A stretch of 64,000 nucleotides of DNA from a virus. This document shows positions 1 to 62,697 of the stretch, in pieces. Numbering within the stretch: position 1 is the stretch's first letter; the number at the start of each line of letters is the position of its first letter. A model generated the notes under the pieces. That model was not told where the DNA came from and did no database searches. It saw only the letters and a list, made by a program, of their open reading frames with translations. The stretch is from positions 62,001-126,000 of the IMG/VR virus record IMGVR_UViG_3300048997_000130; one strand, written 5' to 3'. The position numbers and the translations under genes are program-made.

Positions 1-2
1 TT

Positions 3-428
3 CCAGAATTTGAAGTAGGATCTGCAGCACAAGCAGTAAGCTGGCAACAATCAATAATAGGAAACAGGAATTCGATTCCATACGAAATCGATGGAATCGT
101 AGTTCGAGCCAATAATATTTCTCTCCAAGAAGAGCTTGGAGAAATAAATATGAGACCTAGAGCTCAAATCGCTTATAAATTCGAATCTGCTACCGGGATT
201 TCCCAAGTCATAGATATAAAATGGCAAGTAGGATTGACTGGTCGAATTACAGCAGTAGCATCTGTGGAACCAGTTAATATTGGAGGCGTAGTAATCACTT
301 CCATATCACTTCATAATTTAAAATTATTCCAAGATTTAAAATTATTTAAAGGATGTAGAATATTGATCTCACGTCGTAATGACGTTATTCCGTATTGTGA
401 AAAAAATTTAGATGCAGCGTCAGATTAG
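3..428 (+). CDS. ligA: NAD-dependent DNA ligase, 3' part
   Basis: The last 141 residues of a LigA-type ligase, which seals nicks using NAD+; the 5' part is outside the window. The frame is open from base 3. Visible landmarks are the end of the adenylation domain (PYEIDGIVVR, then RAQIAYKFE) and the OB fold (QVGLTGRITAVASVEPV, ISLHN, RRNDVIPYC). The protein stops right after the OB fold, where cellular LigA continues with a four-Cys zinc finger, helix-hairpin-helix repeats and BRCT. It is therefore a short phage form or a split one. The next gene starts 2 nt later and contains a CPVCG motif, but I see no other link to LigA. Confidence 0.85.
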   Translation, partial: PEFEVGSAAQAVSWQQSIIGNRNSIPYEIDGIVVRANNISLQEELGEINMRPRAQIAYKFESATGISQVIDIKWQVGLTGRITAVASVEPVNIGGVVITSISLHNLKLFQDLKLFKGCRILISRRNDVIPYCEKNLDAASD

Positions 429-2111: not shown

Positions 2112-5100
2112 TCAACTGCATCCCGTAGTATTTCCACAGCTACTACATAAATAGCAACTCCCGCATCTGCGAGTAATCGATCCACAATTGTTACAAGGTG
2201 GAGCATCAATATTCATCTCATTATTAGGAGATGATGATAATTCAGAAGCCGGGATTGCCGTAGGAGTTATGGACTCCGGAGTAGTAGTTGTATTCCCGTA
2301 AGCTTTATCCAAACCAGAATTTTTCCCAGAAAAATAAGTCAAATCGATATATTTAAATATATAGTCATATAGACTATCTGTAAATCGAATCTTAGGATTA
2401 CCCGTATATCCAGATGGTTCAAATTTCGTATTTACGAAACAACGCACCAATTTTTCGAGTGGAACCCCGTGCTGAATAGAAATACTAAGAAGTTTAGTAA
2501 AACTATCCACCAAACCACCCATGGTGGACCCAATTTTCCCTAATCGCACAAATACTTCGCCGGGAGATCCGTCATCATATTCACCAACAATAATATACCC
2601 AGTATGTCCTGCTATATTAAATTTATGACGCCGACTATGTGAATCTATAGGCATTTTGCGTCTATCTGTCACACGGACTTCTCGTATGACTTCCCGAACA
2701 GTTTCCTTAATGCCTGATCCGGATTCCTCTGAAAAACGATTTTTAGTCTTTAGAGGTTGTGATTTCTTGCATCCGTCTCTATATAAAGCTATACATTTGA
2801 GACCGAGTTCCCAACCGATTTTATATAAATCTGCAATTTCTTCCGGAGAAGCTGTTGTTGGTAAATTTACAGTCTTGCTTTGAGCACATGTAATGAGCGG
2901 CTGAATAGCCGCCATCATTTTTAAATGCCCAAGCGGAGGAACGCAACGACCTGATGGTCCGGAAGCCATAGCACAATCAAATATCGGTAAATGTTCTGAT
3001 AGAAGTCCTGGAGCACCTTCAATGAATGAATTTTCCTCTAGATATTCACAAATCCCTTGAATAACCGGCTCTGAATATCCAAGATTGACGAGTGCGGCCT
3101 TCACAGACCCATTCACAAGTTTCATAACACCGCCACCAACAAGCGATTTATATGAAACTAAAGCAAATGCTGGTTCAATCCCTGTCGTATTCATCCCCAT
3201 AAGGAATGAAATCGTATTATGCGACACGAATCCATTGGCAATATATGTAACATTCCCAGGGACTGATATATCATAAGTAAGTTGACGGCCTTGCGATTCC
3301 ACCGTAGTAATTTCATCGTAATAAAAAGAAAGCGCATGTTGCAATCGACCAGCAAAATCAGGAATAAACTTTTCAGCAATATGCCTTGGAATCCGACCAT
3401 CAATATATCTCATTGTAGCGATTTTGCGAAAATCATGACCTATCGGACACACTTCATTAAATAATTCTTCATCAAGATAAATATAATCTCGAGCCCATTC
3501 AGTTTTCCCAAGCACTTTATCAGCCTTACGCGAACATGTAAAACCAACACGTTCCATGAACACACTAGTGAAGTTCCGAGATGTTACCGTTAAACGATAA
3601 ACAGGTTTATCACTATAACCGCCCGTCTGTATATCAAATCTTGTTGGAATCCCAACAGCCAATAACATAGTTTGCACATCACGAATGAAAGCTTCTGATT
3701 TGTTCGTGAGAGATGGTAATCCGTTGGTTACCGAACCATCACAAGTGAATAAACCTCGCAAATAAGCCCCGTATGCTCGCTTATCATTTGTAGCAAGAAT
3801 CGCATCGGGAACATGAGCTTCGAGATGGTCTATTACTTCGATTTTTGCAAATCCAGAAATTGACCACCAAGTTTTGATTTGTGTAGAATTCAAACATAAT
3901 GATATACAGTTATCAGCTGACGTAATAGTTGGATCTTTTCCGAAAAGCTCACGAATGAATCCAGCGCAACGCTCGCGCGCGTCACAATCTTGAGCGTCGA
4001 ATGCAAATCGTAGGCCTTTATGATGCGTCGAACCGTTGGCCGCAAATAATCCACACAATTCCGCCAAACGAATATCGACAATGTTTGGAATTCTAACGCC
4101 TCTATCATAATTCGGGACTAGAGAAGCAGGTAATTTCGGTAACGAAATTTGACGACTCTCGCCGAACAGTTGATTCATACTCAACGGAACAACATCTCCT
4201 TCTTTCAAAGCATCAAAACGGCGCCATTCCCATTGTCCATTCACAATAACTTTGATTTGATGCTTTGGGGTCCCGCGAAGTTGGAATCCACGATCAGTAG
4301 TCACGCCAATAATATCATCTTCACCATTTACATAAAATTGTGTAGCTTGACGTGGTCCAGCATCTGTTTGAACCATGAATTCTACATCTTGCCATTTTTC
4401 ACCATCAGGATTCCCGAGATCTTCAATTCGAATAAGTCCAAGATCTGTTGCGATAAGCGAACCTGCGATAAGGCATCCGAGTGGGGCCTGCAGACTAGCT
4501 TGTGATATACTGAATCCATGGCGCTCACCGAGTTTAATTACTTCTTCCCAAACACTATCCGATAAAGCGCAAACATCATCACCCAATGGATCAAAAGTCC
4601 CTAAATTCCAGCGTTTAGAAATATTCCGGTTGGCTTCTCGATGCATATGCATAATATTCAACATTGCATCGCGATTTTTTTCAAATTCCGAAAATGCAGC
4701 CGTCCGAGCAGCTAATTTGGCTGACCATAAATAAGCATAACCAGTCATGAGACTTGCTAACCGAGCAGCAATAGCACGGCCTTCATCCGAATTATAAGCA
4801 TGACCAAGTTGCATGAGCAGCGATCCAAGATCGCCGTAATTGAGACCGATCGGTCTCAATGCCAACGAATTCTTAGTAATAGAGTCTGTCGGATAGTCGG
4901 CTTTGGCAATAATAGCATTTTGCGCGGTCACGAAAACGCGGACCGAATGCATGAATCGCTGCGTATTTAATTTGCCATCATCAAACATTCGAGTCAAATT
5001 GATAGCACATAAATTGCATGCAGTGTTATCGACATGAGCAAATTCAGCACAGGGATTCGTAGCTCGGATCCTCCCACTACTTGGTGTGGTGTGCCAACGA

Positions 5101-6212
5101 TTTATAGTGTCGGTAAATTGGACACCAGGATCACCGCACATCCATGCAGCCTGTGCTATTTCAGTCCACAGTTCGCGCGCTTTATATTCATGAACAACTT
5201 CTCCAGTTAATCGTTCACGCGTCTTCCACATCCCATCATCAACAACCGCCTGCATAAAAGCGTCGGGAATGCTCACTGAATGATTGGCATTTTGGAATGA
5301 TACCCATTTATATGCAGAATTAGGATCGTCGTAAGCTGCACTATATCCACATTCAATAAGATCATGCGCTCGTTTTTCTTCTATAGCTTTACATCGAATA
5401 AATCCAGGACGCCCATCCATGGTCTCTAAAATATCTGGATGATCCATATCCATAATAGCCATTTTAGCCGCATTCCGAGTGGAACCACCGCTCTTCATGG
5501 CCTTGGCGCCCTTATCAAGCTCCTCCATCCATCCAAGGGGGCCACATACATACGCCCCTGAAGAGAGTTTTTCATATGATGAGCGAATTTTAGATAAATT
5601 GGCTCCTGAACCAGAGCCACCAGCAAATATAATTTTTTCAGATTTGCTGAATTCCATGATTGAATCCAACGTATCATCAACCCCAGAAATAAAACAAGCC
5701 GATGCGGCTTGGCGTCTATCTGGAATACCTACATTAAACCAGACTGGAGAATTGAATGCACCATATTGATGAAGGAGCGCATAAATTAATTCGGCTTCAT
5801 AAATTTCAGCATCTTTAGGAGAATTAAAATATTGTTGCTCATCAGCCCATTGAGTTAGCGTACGAGCAACTCGGCTAAAAAGTTGTTTAGCCGAGGTTTC
5901 TTTCACTCCATTTACCATTCTAAAATATTTACTAACTACTACATTAATGGTTGTCTCGTTCCACCAGTCAGGGACTTCGACATCGAGTTGTTCGAATACC
6001 TTCGAACCATCAGCTCGAACCATCTTAGAATCAACTATTTTCCATTTAATACTGTCAAAAGGATGGACTCCTTCTTGTGTAAAGATACGAGTCCATTTAC
6101 CAGATTCCCTGCCTTCTTTAGAAACACCAATAATGGAATCAAATACTTTCCCTACAGGTGAATCTGATCCGGATTCGGTGTTTTTATTAAGAGCGGCGGA
6201 TCCGTTTGACAT
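2112..6212 (-). CDS. nrdJ: class II (B12-dependent) ribonucleotide reductase with intein
   Basis: Precursor of 1366 aa; reduces ribonucleotides to deoxyribonucleotides using adenosylcobalamin, needing no separate radical subunit. NrdJ landmarks: FNSPVWFNVG, SACFISGVDD, the GSGSGANLSKIR loop, SGGSTRNAAKMAIMDMDHPDI, the active-site NPCAE, and a C-terminal cysteine cluster (CNNCG, CYLCSSCG, GCS) of the type used for re-reduction. An intein occupies residues 580-999 (separate entry); splicing would give about 946 aa, normal for the family. First enzyme of the dNTP genes seen here (ThyX, PurZ, dNMP kinase). The start overlaps the holA 3' end by 26 nt, so the order of expression is holB-holA-nrdJ. 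A GAGG Shine-Dalgarno (tccgaggaggca, minus strand) precedes ATG 6212. Confidence 0.95.
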   Translation of the reverse strand: MSNGSAALNKNTESGSDSPVGKVFDSIIGVSKEGRESGKWTRIFTQEGVHPFDSIKWKIVDSKMVRADGSKVFEQLDVEVPDWWNETTINVVVSKYFRMVNGVKETSAKQLFSRVARTLTQWADEQQYFNSPKDAEIYEAELIYALLHQYGAFNSPVWFNVGIPDRRQAASACFISGVDDTLDSIMEFSKSEKIIFAGGSGSGANLSKIRSSYEKLSSGAYVCGPLGWMEELDKGAKAMKSGGSTRNAAKMAIMDMDHPDILETMDGRPGFIRCKAIEEKRAHDLIECGYSAAYDDPNSAYKWVSFQNANHSVSIPDAFMQAVVDDGMWKTRERLTGEVVHEYKARELWTEIAQAAWMCGDPGVQFTDTINRWHTTPSSGRIRATNPCAEFAHVDNTACNLCAINLTRMFDDGKLNTQRFMHSVRVFVTAQNAIIAKADYPTDSITKNSLALRPIGLNYGDLGSLLMQLGHAYNSDEGRAIAARLASLMTGYAYLWSAKLAARTAAFSEFEKNRDAMLNIMHMHREANRNISKRWNLGTFDPLGDDVCALSDSVWEEVIKLGERHGFSISQASLQAPLGCLIAGSLIATDLGLIRIEDLGNPDGEKWQDVEFMVQTDAGPRQATQFYVNGEDDIIGVTTDRGFQLRGTPKHQIKVIVNGQWEWRRFDALKEGDVVPLSMNQLFGESRQISLPKLPASLVPNYDRGVRIPNIVDIRLAELCGLFAANGSTHHKGLRFAFDAQDCDARERCAGFIRELFGKDPTITSADNCISLCLNSTQIKTWWSISGFAKIEVIDHLEAHVPDAILATNDKRAYGAYLRGLFTCDGSVTNGLPSLTNKSEAFIRDVQTMLLAVGIPTRFDIQTGGYSDKPVYRLTVTSRNFTSVFMERVGFTCSRKADKVLGKTEWARDYIYLDEELFNEVCPIGHDFRKIATMRYIDGRIPRHIAEKFIPDFAGRLQHALSFYYDEITTVESQGRQLTYDISVPGNVTYIANGFVSHNTISFLMGMNTTGIEPAFALVSYKSLVGGGVMKLVNGSVKAALVNLGYSEPVIQGICEYLEENSFIEGAPGLLSEHLPIFDCAMASGPSGRCVPPLGHLKMMAAIQPLITCAQSKTVNLPTTASPEEIADLYKIGWELGLKCIALYRDGCKKSQPLKTKNRFSEESGSGIKETVREVIREVRVTDRRKMPIDSHSRRHKFNIAGHTGYIIVGEYDDGSPGEVFVRLGKIGSTMGGLVDSFTKLLSISIQHGVPLEKLVRCFVNTKFEPSGYTGNPKIRFTDSLYDYIFKYIDLTYFSGKNSGLDKAYGNTTTTPESITPTAIPASELSSSPNNEMNIDAPPCNNCGSITRRCGSCYLCSSCGNTTGCS
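3216..4475 (-). other. intein in NrdJ with LAGLIDADG endonuclease domain
   Basis: Encodes residues 580-999 (420 aa). It begins with Cys (CLIAGSLIATD) after QAPLG and ends in VSHN before Thr, so the spliced junction is APLG-TISFLMG. Residue +1 is Thr. Two LAGLIDADG-type motifs are visible: LCGLFAANGS (Asn at 726 where an acidic metal ligand is expected) and LRGLFTCDGS (Asp 825 kept). Protein splicing looks intact; DNA cleavage by the homing endonuclease may be lost because one of the two catalytic acids is missing. Insertion is in the conserved TISF region of the reductase. Confidence 0.92.
4839..4860. repeat. 22-nt perfect palindrome inside nrdJ
   Basis: Centre GACCGATCGGTC, arms of 11 nt with no loop, inside the N-terminal extein coding sequence. 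Confidence 0.8.
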
Positions 6213-36599: not shown

Positions 36600-36791
36600 T
36601 CAGCGGAAAAGGGCGTTTTCGAGGTTGGCGTCGTCGAACTTGGCACCCGAGAGATTCGCGTCACGGAAGTCCGCATTGCGGAGGTCGGCCCCACGGAAGT
36701 CCGCATTGCGGAGATTAGCGCCTTGGAAATTAGCACACTGGAGGTTGGAACCTGCAAAATTGCCATTCTCGAGATTTTGAACGTTGGTCAT
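36600..36791 (-). CDS. pentapeptide-repeat protein, 63 aa
   Basis: Start ATG 36791 with GGGAGA upstream. From residue 9 it is about eleven A(D/N)LxN-type pentapeptides (NFQGANLRNADFRGADLRNA), giving less than three turns of a right-handed quadrilateral beta helix. Larger members mimic DNA and inhibit gyrase; this one is minimal, so function is open. Confidence 0.8.
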   Translation of the reverse strand: MTNVQNLENGNFAGSNLQCANFQGANLRNADFRGADLRNADFRDANLSGAKFDDANLENALFR

Positions 36792-36813
36792 TTTCTGGAA
36801 TCTCCCAATTTCT

Positions 36814-36839
36814 GCTAAAGCGCCCGGGACCAAATTTCC
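36814..36839 (-). promoter_or_regulatory. array promoter for the pentapeptide gene
   Basis: GGAAAT, 14 nt, TTTAGC, then 7 nt to GGGAG; first box in the loop of the 36819-36860 hairpin. Confidence 0.6.
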
Positions 36840-57952: not shown

Positions 57953-58261
57953 CTAAGCAACGTCCTCGATGTGTCCGGCGTCTTGAAGACCGGTGGAATG
58001 AGCTTCCTGGAACATGTCGAATATCGACCCGTCATCAATCTCGAGCAAGAACTCGAGCTTCTGGATAAGTCCGCCCGTGCCGTACACGAAGTCCGCATCG
58101 CTCGAGAATTCTTGGTCCGGCCAGTAGCCTTGGATACCAAAACTGTAACCGGATTCGCACACGTCCATGATTTCGCACGCCGTCTCGTTGTTGCACGAGA
58201 ACTTGGTCTTGATACTGTCCACCGTCACGTCATTTTTACCACAATAAACTGGATTTGCCAT
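57953..58261 (-). CDS. hypothetical protein, 102 aa
   Basis: Start ATG 58261 (MANPVYCGKNDVTVDSIK), four Cys; acidic. Not recognised. Transcribed with the ART-like gene, which has no promoter of its own. Confidence 0.6.
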   Translation of the reverse strand: MANPVYCGKNDVTVDSIKTKFSCNNETACEIMDVCESGYSFGIQGYWPDQEFSSDADFVYGTGGLIQKLEFLLEIDDGSIFDMFQEAHSTGLQDAGHIEDVA

Positions 58262-58285
58262 TTTTAAATCTTGCCTCCACATCTA

Positions 58286-58311
58286 ATTATTTTAAAAGAT
58301 ATTGGATTTCC
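58286..58311 (-). promoter_or_regulatory. array promoter for 57372-58261
   Basis: GGAAAT, 14 nt, AATAAT, 7 nt, GGAGG. Confidence 0.6.
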
Positions 58312-58360
58312 GGAATTTTCAAGTTTTTGATTAATGGAATTTTACGAAGGAGTTACCCCG

Positions 58361-58789
58361 ATGCATAAATTCGTAAATGGACTTTTGTTATTGATATTTG
58401 CGTTGTTTGTTACTATATCCGCTTGCAGTGGTGATGGTTGCGGAACCGTGACCTGTATGAGTCCTGGAACTGGATCATACACTATTGCAGAAGTTGTAGT
58501 TTCTGGCAGCCCATCGAGCTGCCAGCAGCTAATTACTAATTCTACGTCAGTCTGGGCGTCTTATACTTGGACACAAGTTTCGCAGGCTCCGACTTGCGAA
58601 TATGATACGACATTCACCATTACTTCCCCTATCACCGGGAATCATTCCACTTCAACATTGAAGATGTATATGGGGATGAGCCAGGTAGATGTACCTGGTT
58701 ACGGAACTAAGACTTGCAGTCAAGCGCAGCCCGGTGCGCCTGTGGTCGTTAATGGTTGTAGTTATAACGTATATGTTTGTCAGAACTGA
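58361..58789 (+). CDS. putative lipoprotein, 142 aa, plus strand
   Basis: Start ATG 58361 behind AAGGAG. Signal MHKFVNGLLLLIFALFVTIS ends in ISAC, a good lipobox; the mature protein has about ten Cys, suggesting disulphides in the periplasm or outer membrane. AT-richer than the surrounding array. A surface or superinfection-exclusion lipoprotein is possible. Confidence 0.65.
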   Translation: MHKFVNGLLLLIFALFVTISACSGDGCGTVTCMSPGTGSYTIAEVVVSGSPSSCQQLITNSTSVWASYTWTQVSQAPTCEYDTTFTITSPITGNHSTSTLKMYMGMSQVDVPGYGTKTCSQAQPGAPVVVNGCSYNVYVCQN

Positions 58790-59038
58790 TTATTGAAGTT
58801 GACTGTGGGGATCCGATCCGGGCCGCTGAATAATGCACGACAAGAATTGATTTCCACGAATGAATTCGACATGGATGTCGCCAAATTCCGTGTAACTATC
58901 AATATAATCTTGGACAGTCCGGATCGGACTCCCGTTACTTGATATGATTTTATCACCCACAAGGAGTCCAGCTTTTTCAGCTGGACTATCCGGCTGGATG
59001 TGCCAAATCCGGAATCCGTCGATTTGAGTGTCAGTCAT
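58790..59038 (-). CDS. single PDZ-domain protein, 82 aa
   Basis: Start ATG 59038, 1 nt after the upstream stop. FRIWHIQPDSPAEKAGLLVG then DKIISSNGSPIRTVQDYID and VEFIRGNQ: a full PDZ domain with nothing else, no protease. PDZ binds protein C-termini, so it may target HtrA-type partners or compete with host PDZ proteins. Confidence 0.75.
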   Translation of the reverse strand: MTDTQIDGFRIWHIQPDSPAEKAGLLVGDKIISSNGSPIRTVQDYIDSYTEFGDIHVEFIRGNQFLSCIIQRPGSDPHSQLQ

Positions 59039-59039
59039 C

Positions 59040-59255
59040 TTATTTGATTGTAAAAGATTCCGGGTCTGATCTACTGGCCCGAATATTATCGTTCCTGTTG
59101 CAACCCGGACAAGGCTTTCGAGTCCAAAGTTGGAAAGCCCCGTCCACCATGACGGCTTTGGAATGCGATCGAAATGACTTTCCACAATGACATTCAATAC
59201 TGGATTCCGGAAATCCATCCAGGACTAACCAATTAATTTCCGTAGGGGATTCCAT
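59040..59255 (-). CDS. zinc-ribbon-like protein, 71 aa
   Basis: CHCGKSF and CPGCNRND give a four-Cys site. No array promoter upstream; a 22-nt palindrome (59278-59299) lies there. Confidence 0.6.
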   Translation of the reverse strand: MESPTEINWLVLDGFPESSIECHCGKSFRSHSKAVMVDGAFQLWTRKPCPGCNRNDNIRASRSDPESFTIK

Positions 59256-59277
59256 GTGAGCTTATGTGGTGGAGTGT

Positions 59278-59299
59278 ACGTGTTGCACGTGCAACACGT
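59278..59299. repeat. 22-nt perfect palindrome
   Basis: ACGTGTTGCAC and exact complement, upstream of the 59040-59255 gene; terminator or operator. Confidence 0.7.
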
Positions 59300-59306
59300 T
59301 GCGTTA

Positions 59307-59597
59307 TCAGATAGATTCCCGAACATTCTTCATGAAACGCAAAACGGCTGCCTGGATCCCGCCTCCCGTAAGATCTGCGAACCCAAGAATCCCACGAAGC
59401 CGGCCTAGTTGAGGGGAGATGGAATCTCTGGATAGATTACGATTTCTCATCTCTTCATGCACAACCATTACCATTTCCTGGCAGATTTTCTGTTGTCGAT
59501 TGACACGCATGGTTGGAGGTTTCTTAACTCCATATAGTTCTTCGAGCGTCGCCAAGTCCCATTCAGTGGCTTTGCAGTATTCTTGAAAAATGTCCAT
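59307..59597 (-). CDS. hypothetical protein, 96 aa
   Basis: WDLATLEELYGVKKPPTMRV, then helices; GFADLTGGGIQAAVLRFMKN. Not recognised. Confidence 0.6.
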   Translation of the reverse strand: MDIFQEYCKATEWDLATLEELYGVKKPPTMRVNRQQKICQEMVMVVHEEMRNRNLSRDSISPQLGRLRGILGFADLTGGGIQAAVLRFMKNVRESI

Positions 59598-59618
59598 GGA
59601 AATTCAACCTCAACCGGA

Positions 59619-59644
59619 ACTAAGCCATGAATGATTGTATTTAC
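59619..59644 (-). promoter_or_regulatory. array promoter for 59307-59597
   Basis: GTAAAT, 14 nt, CTTAGT, 7 nt, GAGG. Confidence 0.6.
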
Positions 59645-59653
59645 GGAGCTGGA

Positions 59654-59914
59654 TTATCCACCATCCACAAATTTATACTCATATTTCGGGACTTCGACGA
59701 GCTCGTAATCTTTACGATCGAAACCAAGCTTAGAAAGCCATTCTTCGGCCTTTCCAGATTGAGTTTCCACGCTGAAAGCGGCCGGATATTTTCCGGGGTC
59801 TTTAGCCTCCATATCCGGGAATGGTGATGGACAATCTTCGACGACAAAATCGATTTTGTCGGTTCCACCACGACGCAGGACTTGAATTTTATGTATTTGG
59901 AGTTGTAGCAACAT
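59654..59914 (-). CDS. hypothetical protein, 86 aa
   Basis: Start ATG 59914 (MLLQLQIHKIQVLRRGG), 1 nt after the membrane gene stops; acidic C-terminus. Not recognised. Confidence 0.55.
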   Translation of the reverse strand: MLLQLQIHKIQVLRRGGTDKIDFVVEDCPSPFPDMEAKDPGKYPAAFSVETQSGKAEEWLSKLGFDRKDYELVEVPKYEYKFVDGG

Positions 59915-59915
59915 T

Positions 59916-60233
59916 TTAATCCAATCGGACTGATAGATACCAAAAAGCAAAAAAACTCAGGACGGCTTTATAGGTTACTGCCCCGAATGAGCCAAGGAGC
60001 GTAATGATTATCGCAGCGTGGTTGGTGAACCCCACCATTTGACCAAGTGCCATATATATGAGAATTGCCATGCCGGCTGCGATGAAAAATTTCATTTTAA
60101 CTTGGCTCCAGCTCCAAATACGGAAACGGGACTTGGATTTGCGAACTGGCCTCGACTTTGGAGGTTTGGCCAAAGCCTGCGCAAGTCGGTCTCGTGATTC
60201 CTTATTGGCTTGACCGGACAAGTTTCCATCCAA
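59916..60233 (-). CDS. small membrane protein, 105 aa
   Basis: Basic N-terminal 45 residues, then two membrane helices (FFIAAGMAILIYMALG and HAAIIITLLGSFGAVTY). The basic part would face the cytoplasm. Overlaps the upstream gene by 32 nt. Confidence 0.6.
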   Translation of the reverse strand: MDGNLSGQANKESRDRLAQALAKPPKSRPVRKSKSRFRIWSWSQVKMKFFIAAGMAILIYMALGQMVGFTNHAAIIITLLGSFGAVTYKAVLSFFAFWYLSVRLD

Positions 60234-60486
60234 CCGTTGCCATTTTTCGTATGGGCAACGCTGCGAATTTGGTTTGATTCTCGGCGTTCAGAACGTCATG
60301 CACCTGCACAAGCATGCTGGCCGTGGTGGCGTCAACAAACAGACCATCCACGCGATTGGCTTGATGGCCGGCCACAATTTCTCGGAGTTTCTCAATGCGA
60401 GTCTTCTTGACGGACTTAGGAATGCTTTTTACGGCTCTCGCCAAATCGTCCCTGTGTAGTTGCTCTTCAGGATTCCGGAGTCTCAT
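60202..60486 (-). CDS. hypothetical helical protein, 94 aa
   Basis: Start ATG 60486 (MRLRNPEEQLHRDDLAR), 20 nt inside the ligase-like gene. Basic helices, then RVDGLFVDATTASMLVQVHD. Not recognised. Confidence 0.55.
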   Translation of the reverse strand: MRLRNPEEQLHRDDLARAVKSIPKSVKKTRIEKLREIVAGHQANRVDGLFVDATTASMLVQVHDVLNAENQTKFAALPIRKMATVGWKLVRSSQ

Positions 60487-61033
60487 GTTCTTGCATATGT
60501 TCAGGCGCTTCAAATTTCCGAAACGGCAAGACTTCTCGAGCTTTTAAATCGAGAGCTCGAGCTCGAAGCAGAGATTTAGAACGGCCGGCCTTATAAAGAG
60601 ACCCGGGTTCATAGAGCAAAAGTTCATAACTGCGCACTTGCAGGAGCTCATTTATCAAATGCTCATGTGACAGGAGTTTTTGAGGTTCATCGAGAATCCA
60701 AATTTTGGTGGTGAGCGTGGAGCGCCATAAACGCTCAAGTTCTTCTTGCCGTTTTTCGAACGGCACTGTCGTAAAACTTGGCAAATCCACCAAACACAAT
60801 TTAATGATTGGTTGCGAATCATCATAAAACCCATCGAGTGGAATGTTCGGGAAACCGTCCAAGAATTCGTCCGGAGTGGACAAAACGTTGCCATGCCGGT
60901 CAAGAAGCATCTTCCCATCCCAATATACATGTTGCCCTTCGGGTTGAATGGTTATCCACCAACCGACGGGATTCACGTCCGGAAAATCTTCTAGATTTCG
61001 GGCACGCATGAGAGGTGGACTATTGGGTTTCAT
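60467..61033 (-). CDS. degenerate ATP-dependent DNA ligase-like protein, 188 aa
   Basis: Aligns by eye with the adenylation domain of small ATP ligases (LigE type): GWWITIQPEGQHVYWDGK corresponds to W-x-S-E-K-L-D-G-V-R-A-Y-W-D-G-K; LLDRHGNV, PNIPLDG, LVDLPSF, PFEKRQEEL and YEPGSLYKAGRSKSLLRAR also fit. The catalytic Lys is Gln 30, the Asp is Glu 32, the Arg is His 35, the metal-binding Glu after LDG is Phe 69, and the K-x-K motif V is R-A-R. It should not form ligase-AMP; a DNA- or protein-binding role is likelier. No OB domain. Confidence 0.65.
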   Translation of the reverse strand: MKPNSPPLMRARNLEDFPDVNPVGWWITIQPEGQHVYWDGKMLLDRHGNVLSTPDEFLDGFPNIPLDGFYDDSQPIIKLCLVDLPSFTTVPFEKRQEELERLWRSTLTTKIWILDEPQKLLSHEHLINELLQVRSYELLLYEPGSLYKAGRSKSLLRARALDLKAREVLPFRKFEAPEHMQEHETPES

Positions 61034-61074
61034 GCAGTATCATACATCTTTGAACGCTCTTGCTGCGAGAAACA

Positions 61075-61317
61075 CTAACCGAGCAATGTCGGAAGTCGCT
61101 TCTTCCTTCGATTTTGAACTTCTCGCAGAATTGGTTTGAAGCCTTGAATTTGATTGAACACTGAACTCAAGAAACCAAATTTATCTCCGGTGAAATTCAA
61201 AAATTTTTTCACGAGAATGTGTTCGCAGCGATGACGATAACTGAGCAAAATTTTCTCAGCAACTTCAGGTGAATCGCTGGACAGAATGTCATAAACGACG
61301 TCAGCTTCCATGGACAT
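61075..61317 (-). CDS. hypothetical helical protein, 80 aa
   Basis: ADVVYDILSSDSPEVAEKIL then HRCEHILVKKFLNF; basic end. No array promoter. Not recognised. Confidence 0.55.
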   Translation of the reverse strand: MSMEADVVYDILSSDSPEVAEKILLSYRHRCEHILVKKFLNFTGDKFGFLSSVFNQIQGFKPILREVQNRRKKRLPTLLG

Positions 61318-61332
61318 TATTTTGCCTTAGAT

Positions 61333-61367
61333 TATCTGCCATATATTTTTAGATTATATGGCAGATA
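61333..61367 (-). terminator. 13-bp AT-rich hairpin
   Basis: TATCTGCCATATA and exact complement, 9-nt loop, right after the 61368-61622 stop. Confidence 0.6.
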
Positions 61368-61622
61368 CTACGCAACTCGAACTGACGGCATGTCCTGACG
61401 GGTGGTCCGGTTCTGGCGAGCCGCCTGTTCAGCCGCCCGAATGAATTTGGTGTCTGCATGATTGCGCACTGCAGCATCGAGTTGCCGGACTGTCCATCCC
61501 GAAGTTCGGGCAACATAGCAAAAAACTTGGCATTTGGTTTCGATGTCCATGCCTGCAAGAGCCGCTTTCATGGCCACCAGACGATGCATGACTGATTTGA
61601 ACTCGAGACGATTTCGTTCCAT
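61368..61622 (-). CDS. hypothetical protein, 84 aa
   Basis: Start ATG 61622 (MERNRLEFKSVMHRLVAM), AGGAGC site; TSGWTVRQLDAAVRNHADT may be a helix-turn-helix. Basic C-terminus. Confidence 0.55.
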   Translation of the reverse strand: MERNRLEFKSVMHRLVAMKAALAGMDIETKCQVFCYVARTSGWTVRQLDAAVRNHADTKFIRAAEQAARQNRTTRQDMPSVRVA

Positions 61623-61629
61623 GTTTGCT

Positions 61630-61655
61630 CCTAAATCGAAATCAGTCAGATTTCC
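61630..61655 (-). promoter_or_regulatory. array promoter for 61368-61622
   Basis: GGAAAT, 14 nt, TTTAGG; overlaps the upstream gene's end. Confidence 0.6.
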
Positions 61656-61995
61656 GCAATTGCTCGAGAAGCGACTTGCGCCAAGGATTCCCGCCGTCGT
61701 CAACAAACCGAATGTTTTGGATTTGATCTGGCAAAGCTACGCCATAATAACCATGGCAATGGCTTTCCAGATTATCGTCTCGGATTCCGACATGTCCAAA
61801 ACGTGAGTAGCAAGTTATGAAGACTTTGGTGCCGGCCGTGGCCGTGTGGACTTCGGTGTTGGCGTCCGACGGATGCGTGCCGTTCCAAACGCGCATTTCA
61901 ATGGGTTCGAGGAGTTCCGCATGTGCGAAAACTTCCCGACCTTCATGTTTGCGGAGATAGATTTCTTCCCAGGCTGCTGCGTCTTCAGGATTCAT
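61642..61995 (-). CDS. hypothetical protein, 117 aa
   Basis: AHAELLEPIEMRVWNGTHPS, then AGTKVFITCYSRFGHVGIRD: beta-rich; not recognised. Confidence 0.6.
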   Translation of the reverse strand: MNPEDAAAWEEIYLRKHEGREVFAHAELLEPIEMRVWNGTHPSDANTEVHTATAGTKVFITCYSRFGHVGIRDDNLESHCHGYYGVALPDQIQNIRFVDDGGNPWRKSLLEQLRKSD

Positions 61996-61999
61996 ATTC

Positions 62000-62155
62000 T
62001 TAACTATTCCAAGAGATTTTGAATTTCCGTTTGAAAAGTGCCCCGGTCACGCAGCCGAATGCAAAAATCGCAGCGTGCAGCGCCCCATAAAGCCCGAACC
62101 AAAAGCCGGCAAAAGCTACGGCGAACATGATGAGCGCAAGATCACGATTTTGCAT
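62000..62155 (-). CDS. small membrane protein, 51 aa
   Basis: Start ATG 62155 (MQNRDLALIMFAVAFAG), 14 nt inside the upstream gene. Two short hydrophobic segments, then KRKFKISWNS. Not recognised. Confidence 0.5.
   Translation of the reverse strand: MQNRDLALIMFAVAFAGFWFGLYGALHAAIFAFGCVTGALFKRKFKISWNS
62003..62028 (-). promoter_or_regulatory. array promoter for 61642-61995
   Basis: GGAAAT, 14 nt, AATAGT. Confidence 0.6.
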
Positions 62156-62441
62156 GATTGTCCAGATAAACTTGGAAACCCCGCAAGGCTCCCGCAATGG
62201 ATTCAAAATCATTACAAATGGCAGACATGGGCCGGTTGCCAACTTTTGGGAACCGGGGTCTCAAGAAATCTGAATAATCACCCAAGAAATTTTGCATGTT
62301 CCGCACGCGCTGAAGCCGTAAACTGTGTCGAATTTCAAGCAGGAGCAAAACTTGGAGTTCGAACGCTTCGGGCCCGCCCCAGTTGCGAGGATGCTCAAGC
62401 ATCATTTCTATGCGCGTCTCAATGAACGATTCGATGTCCAT
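62142..62441 (-). CDS. hypothetical helical protein, 99 aa
   Basis: Start ATG 62441 (MDIESFIETRIEMMLEH); helical throughout. Located 20 nt behind a structured RNA that could be its leader. Confidence 0.55.
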   Translation of the reverse strand: MDIESFIETRIEMMLEHPRNWGGPEAFELQVLLLLEIRHSLRLQRVRNMQNFLGDYSDFLRPRFPKVGNRPMSAICNDFESIAGALRGFQVYLDNHAKS

Positions 62442-62444
62442 GGC

Positions 62445-62697
62445 TTTTTCAAAAACAAAAACGGGCAACGCACCCCGAGGACTAAAATGTCCTCTTTCCC
62501 CCGGCAAGAGGCGATCGATTCGTACCTTTGGACATTTTTGCCGAATGCCACGTCTTATCGATCCTTACTTTGGGGTGCGTTGCCCGCGAATTTAATTTTC
62601 CTTTTATAACTGTGCTTTATTTTACATTTAAACCGACAAGACTGTCCAAGACTGCTTAAATCAAAACTTTACTGAAATTTTTTGGTGTTCGATTTCT
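62445..62697 (-). ncRNA. structured RNA or leader ending in a terminator
   Basis: Begins after an array promoter that has no ribosome site or ORF behind it. Closing stem of 15 bp (62462-62476 with 62572-62586), then GCCCGTTTTTGTTTTTG, as in an intrinsic terminator. Inside: 7-bp stem (62512-62518 with 62557-62563), CCTCTT / AAGAGG, and two exclusive options for GGAC: a local GGAC / GTCC hairpin or a 9-bp pairing of 62484-62492 with 62530-62538. An independent RNA, or a switchable leader of the 62142-62441 gene. Confidence 0.5.

Follow-up and report, generated by a model that had tools for sequence, protein, structure and literature searches.

The stretch of DNA analysed here, hereafter the window, comprises 64,000 nucleotides and corresponds to bases 62001-126000 of a viral record of 196,676 bases. 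At 60467..61033 on the minus strand lies an open reading frame (ORF) for a protein of 188 residues, P0001, which phmmer, NCBIfam and the predicted structure identify as a homologue of the Lig E adenylation domain, very probably inactive. The frame opens with an ATG immediately after an in-frame stop and contains no internal stop, in agreement with the position and the intact frame given in a preliminary description of this DNA. The annotated frame also shows a modest preference in codon use, with a score of 0.10 compared to -0.01 or less in the other five frames. A Shine-Dalgarno sequence is absent before the gene; however, this is uninformative, because one is also lacking for 19 of the 25 ORFs in the left half of the window that start with ATG and span 150 residues or more. 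The same description had given P0001 overlapping neighbours, which is correct on the downstream side, where an ORF of 103 residues with a TTG start (60202..60513, minus strand) overlaps it by 47 bp, but not on the upstream side, where the 3' end of an ORF of 80 residues (61075..61317, minus strand) lies 41 bp before P0001. A phage that encodes an intact Lig E fusion has a weak relative of the 103-residue ORF at a distance of about 9 kb from the fusion gene; a pattern search starting from this ORF found no relative. No nucleotide similarity to known phages was detected for window positions 58000-62500.

Searching the solved structures with phmmer matched P0001 to 4d05 (E 1.2e-11), 8u6x (E 5.4e-8) and 6gdr (E 7e-4). 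The NCBIfam Lig E model (NF006592) matched with an E-value of 8.9e-15 and 54.4 bits, thus not reaching its curated cut-off of 200 bits, and BLASTP against a phage Lig E gave 34% identity over 177 columns with an E-value of 5e-27, calculated for that pair alone. These E-values rule out a chance resemblance to Lig E. The homology to a small ATP-dependent ligase claimed from the letters alone is therefore borne out, with Lig E as the family, and an HMM match to a ligase exists in NCBIfam, though Pfam and PHROGs searches with P0001 returned zero matches. The Pfam ligase model PF01068 is insensitive for OB-less Lig E relatives: of three that keep the catalytic Lys, two scored below the cut-off and one gave no match. 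Scanning viral contigs with P0001 alone yielded one relative, compared to 20 with a three-row alignment, and plasmid records held two weak partial matches, both gonococcal. We conclude that P0001 is a real Lig E homologue, very probably inactive and stripped down to the adenylation domain.

Structure prediction by AlphaFold2 with a 28-row alignment resulted in a model of P0001 with a mean pLDDT of 87.7, compared to 39.8 for the single sequence in the same program; the model is homology-borne and leans on the alignment of active relatives. Superposition of this model against 4d05 yields a Z-score of 20.9 over 155 residues at 2.0 Å, indicating a predicted adenylation-domain fold, and the nearest solved structures are three Lig E ligases with Z-scores of 18.6-20.9. 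P0001 resembles Psy-Lig (4d05), Ame-Lig (6gdr) and Neisseria gonorrhoeae Lig E (8u6x) in this fold, at 24-28% identity over 152-159 residues. However, these enzymes possess the catalytic Lys, the Glu, the motif V Lys and the OB domain that P0001 lacks, and P0001 further differs by a deletion and a score below the family cut-off. The adenylation framework over 160 residues that had been described thus holds in fold and homology, once a gap of about 19 residues beyond F69 is allowed for. The m3G-cap-binding domain of snurportin-1 (1xk5) ranks sixth in the fold search, with a Z-score of 17.1 over 155 residues at 2.5 Å. This ligase-like domain is a non-catalytic binder that has the nucleotidyltransferase fold as a single domain without an OB domain, and P0001 is likewise a lone domain devoid of both the OB domain and the catalytic residues. 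However, the two share 16% identity, and snurportin-1 is a eukaryotic protein with a cap ligand.

Differences from Lig E were found in the active site. Eleven catalytic or AMP-contacting positions were compared, nine of them from Ame-Lig, the other two being the motif I Asp and the motif IV Glu, which we take to be catalytic in this family. The Ame-Lig report names the nine AMP-touching residues as S32, K34, R39, R50, E73, F133, M191, K209 and K211 (PMC6144786). Ten of the eleven positions are changed in P0001, the sole survivor being R46, which corresponds to Ame-Lig R50. The motif I region (residues 28-35, 60929..60952, minus strand as for all motifs here) has T28, Q30, E32, G33 and H35 where the relatives have S-x-K-x-D-G-x-R, with the Lys replaced by Gln30 and the Arg by His35. 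By alignment, the motif III Glu has become Phe69 (60827..60829), motif IV reads Y-E-L-L-L-Y instead of E-G-L-M-L-R (residues 136-141, 60611..60628), and motif V reads R-A-R instead of K-V-K (residues 157-159, 60557..60565). The motif IV Glu sits in a gap of the multiple alignment, and its replacement by Tyr136 was assigned from the pairwise alignment. The residues that sandwich the adenine are altered too, from F to V82 and from M to L139. The motif I K-x-D-G-x-R, the motif III Glu, the motif IV Glu and the motif V Lys pair that define membership of Lig E are thus all missing, and the changes listed in the preliminary description (Q30, E32-G33, H35, F69 and the motif V lysines, here R157/R159) are those found. 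Judged from these residues, P0001 should be unable to form the lysyl-adenylate.

The loss is uneven along the protein. Among columns at least 75% conserved across 27 relatives, P0001 keeps 1 of the 11 catalytic ones compared to 23 of the 39 others (Fisher p 0.005), a contrast that could partly reflect the replaceability of buried and exposed residues. With the nine published positions alone and gaps counted, the figures are 1/9 and 23/41 (p 0.024), and p ranges from 0.001 to 0.047 across all twelve settings. When each of the 27 relatives was left out in turn, it kept 7-11 of the 11 catalytic positions; the motif I Lys and Arg, absent in P0001, are present in all 27 aligned viral relatives. Removed from the alignment before these counts were L030 and L039 (odd or partial), L002 and L022, the repeated or truncated copies L037, L038, L040, L041, L044, L047, L048, L050 and L054, and the non-ligases L034, L051 and L053.

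The closest viral sequences to P0001, at 31-35% identity, are proteins of large phages in which a SWIM-like zinc finger is fused to Lig E. An N-terminal CxC...CxH segment resembling the SWIM zinc finger is borne by 16 of the 21 relative ORFs, L002 and L031 being the same protein; large-phage examples include L001, L013, L015 and L055. The SWIM-like label rests on the look of this segment, the Pfam SWIM match of L002 being below the cut-off (E 0.07) and none being listed for L001. Unlike P0001, the fusions (L001, L013, L055) retain the active site and have, besides the CxC...CxH segment, an OB region, which is a clear OB domain in L001 and L002; from their sequences they look active. Like the phage of P0001, some of the phages that encode such fusions have a LigA as well. 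No paper joining 'SWIM domain', 'DNA ligase' and 'phage' was found, and neither an inactive phage ligase nor a SWIM-ligase fusion is described in the titles and abstracts listed by searches of the open-licence literature. P0001 is also similar in length to the OB-less viral Lig E homologues of 169-210 residues (L035, L042, L043, L045, L049), which consist of the adenylation domain alone. However, these keep the motif I Lys and Arg and form a separate clade with a support of 100/99. In a tree of 55 rows, for which every third bacterial locus was sampled (27 of 80), P0001 has the longest branch, 8.46 compared to a median of 0.63, and its placement is not resolved.

No other inactive homologue was seen among the ligase relatives examined. 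A pattern scan of viral contigs without the motif I constraint returned 22 stretches, 19 of them with a Lig E motif I, in which the Lys is always present (19/19), and the 4 stretches from a looser pattern are all non-ligases. The Lys and Arg are found in 114 of 114 further loci, a biased count in that the patterns demanded the Arg and one set was the best 80 of 571 loci. Since none of the relatives lacks the catalytic Lys, several of the patterns favouring intact motifs, inactive forms such as P0001 may be rare. Two second matches were rejected. The match in G009 is an HNH endonuclease to which an OB domain is attached; the match in G017 is another ORF resembling a ligase, and it carries the motif K-x-D-G-x-R. 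At L175:1255-1896 on the minus strand, an intact SWIM-like/Lig E gene is followed directly downstream by an HNH endonuclease joined to an OB domain of Lig E type, which looks like a homing-endonuclease event in the ligase gene. Synteny of the P0001 region with intact Lig E loci was rejected as well, the shared genes being weak and scattered. A short ORF at window positions 36600-36833 (minus strand) matches a repetitive protein that is encoded next to Lig E in L001; it may be a low-complexity match.

The phage also encodes the NAD-dependent ligase LigA, a protein of 381 residues with adenylation and OB domains. Its gene, on the plus strand, occupies positions 61283-62428 of the record and starts left of the window, with its 3' end at window positions 1..428. 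The LigA claimed previously is thus real, lying mostly to the left of the window. The record has no additional Lig E that could be the active one, as the Lig E profile matches P0001 only. In addition, the idea that LigA and intact Lig E are mutually exclusive is refuted, both being carried by 5 of the 17 records with intact Lig E, many of which may be fragments. Therefore, the presence of LigA is not enough to render Lig E dispensable; Lig E may be needed less where LigA is present, yet LigA does not replace it by rule.

P0001 stops 29 residues past motif V, and the OB domain expected there is entirely missing. No OB remnant was seen in the frames downstream, the OB model PF14743 has no match across the whole record at E<=1, and the record contains no separate SWIM gene. 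The pairwise alignment also places the deletion of about 19 residues directly after F69, where it removes the DNA-contacting segment past motif III, and the model has no helix between the strands 66-71 and 78-83. The preliminary description had overlooked the loss of both this segment and the OB domain. In the Lig E study, the key DNA contacts are assigned to the OB domain, the joint change of four OB residues abolishing binding, and further contacts to a segment of the adenylation domain that directly follows motif III (PMC6144786). It had been suggested that P0001 may occupy nicks or block host repair; under this proposal, the inactive protein would sit on nicks and keep the host or phage ligase away. 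The catalytic-Lys mutant of Psy-Lig, as described in that study, retains DNA binding, though at lower affinity (PMC6144786), and the charge at motif V of P0001 is preserved by the change of both Lys to Arg. However, because P0001 has neither an OB domain nor the segment that follows motif III, DNA binding of the Lig E type and nick blocking appear unlikely from the sequence, and we regard such a nick occupier as quite improbable. Still more remote is a P0001 that remains a nucleotidyltransferase through a relocated nucleophile or as a subunit: the fold retained by homology, R46 and some conserved charge would be compatible with it, but the motif I Lys and Asp, the motif III Glu, the motif IV Glu and the motif V Lys are all replaced together.

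The explanation that we favour, with a probability of roughly one half, is that P0001 is a non-catalytic, stand-alone binding domain derived from Lig E, in which the adenylation fold is kept. Its ancestor would have been a Lig E ligase, probably of the large-phage kind, from which three parts would have disappeared: the OB domain, the DNA-contacting segment past motif III and, in case the ancestor possessed it, the SWIM-like segment at the N-terminus. Nearly all AMP-binding residues would have been lost while the adenylation fold was retained. The resulting domain would most likely bind either a protein or some small ligand resembling a nucleotide, in the manner of the ligase-like domain of snurportin-1; a nucleotide itself appears doubtful, because V82 and L139 replace the adenine-sandwich residues. 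Both selection on the fold and a binding activity of P0001 are inferred. Quite possibly, it is a phage pseudoenzyme, that is, a Lig E stripped of its active site and OB domain that serves as a dedicated binder, for example by acting as an adaptor or by antagonizing a host factor, and it would then be a parallel to snurportin-1 in a virus of bacteria. If P0001 is functional, the ligase adenylation fold would be reusable as a binding module in phage.

It is also possible, and has to be taken seriously, that P0001 is a decaying relic, a dispensable Lig E that was truncated and is drifting, with its frame open by chance. Its C-terminal and internal losses, its single copy with no orthologue found in the viral-contig scans, its longest branch in the tree and the presence of LigA would all be expected of a relic, although the long branch also fits long evolution under a new constraint, and intact Lig E and LigA occur together in other records. 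However, under neutral decay catalytic and structural columns should be lost alike, which is contradicted by the preferential loss of catalytic positions. In addition, much change has accumulated with neither a stop nor a frameshift, and the indels relative to the relatives preserve the frame. Neutral non-catalytic losses would predict 2.1-5.1 stops compared to 0 observed (P 0.006-0.12 in twelve settings), with the reservation that its open frame is what drew attention to this ORF in the first place. Selective loss and zero stops therefore lean towards retention of P0001, without settling between relic and reuse, as no orthologue was found. The claim that P0001 is not a pseudogene fares accordingly, being favoured by the open frame and the selective catalytic loss yet unproven. 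If P0001 is a relic, it would show a LigA-bearing phage far advanced in losing its second ligase.

The G+C content is clearly raised over about 36 kb around P0001, and LigA lies outside this region. This island covers window positions of about 32000-64000 and continues to about position 130000 of the record, with a G+C of about 0.44-0.53 compared to about 0.34-0.45 outside, measured in 4-kb steps. Horizontal gain and chimeric assembly are both possible origins; in the case of a chimeric assembly, the two ligase genes would be unlinked, and the reading of P0001 would be unaffected. Among 19 other island proteins searched against Pfam, two exceeded a cut-off, an AAA ATPase and a PDZ protein. A small PDZ-domain protein, which seems unusual in a phage, is encoded at window positions 58790-59218 on the minus strand. 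Window positions 2112-6212, on the same strand, encode a class II ribonucleotide reductase of 1366 residues with an intein that bears a LAGLIDADG domain.
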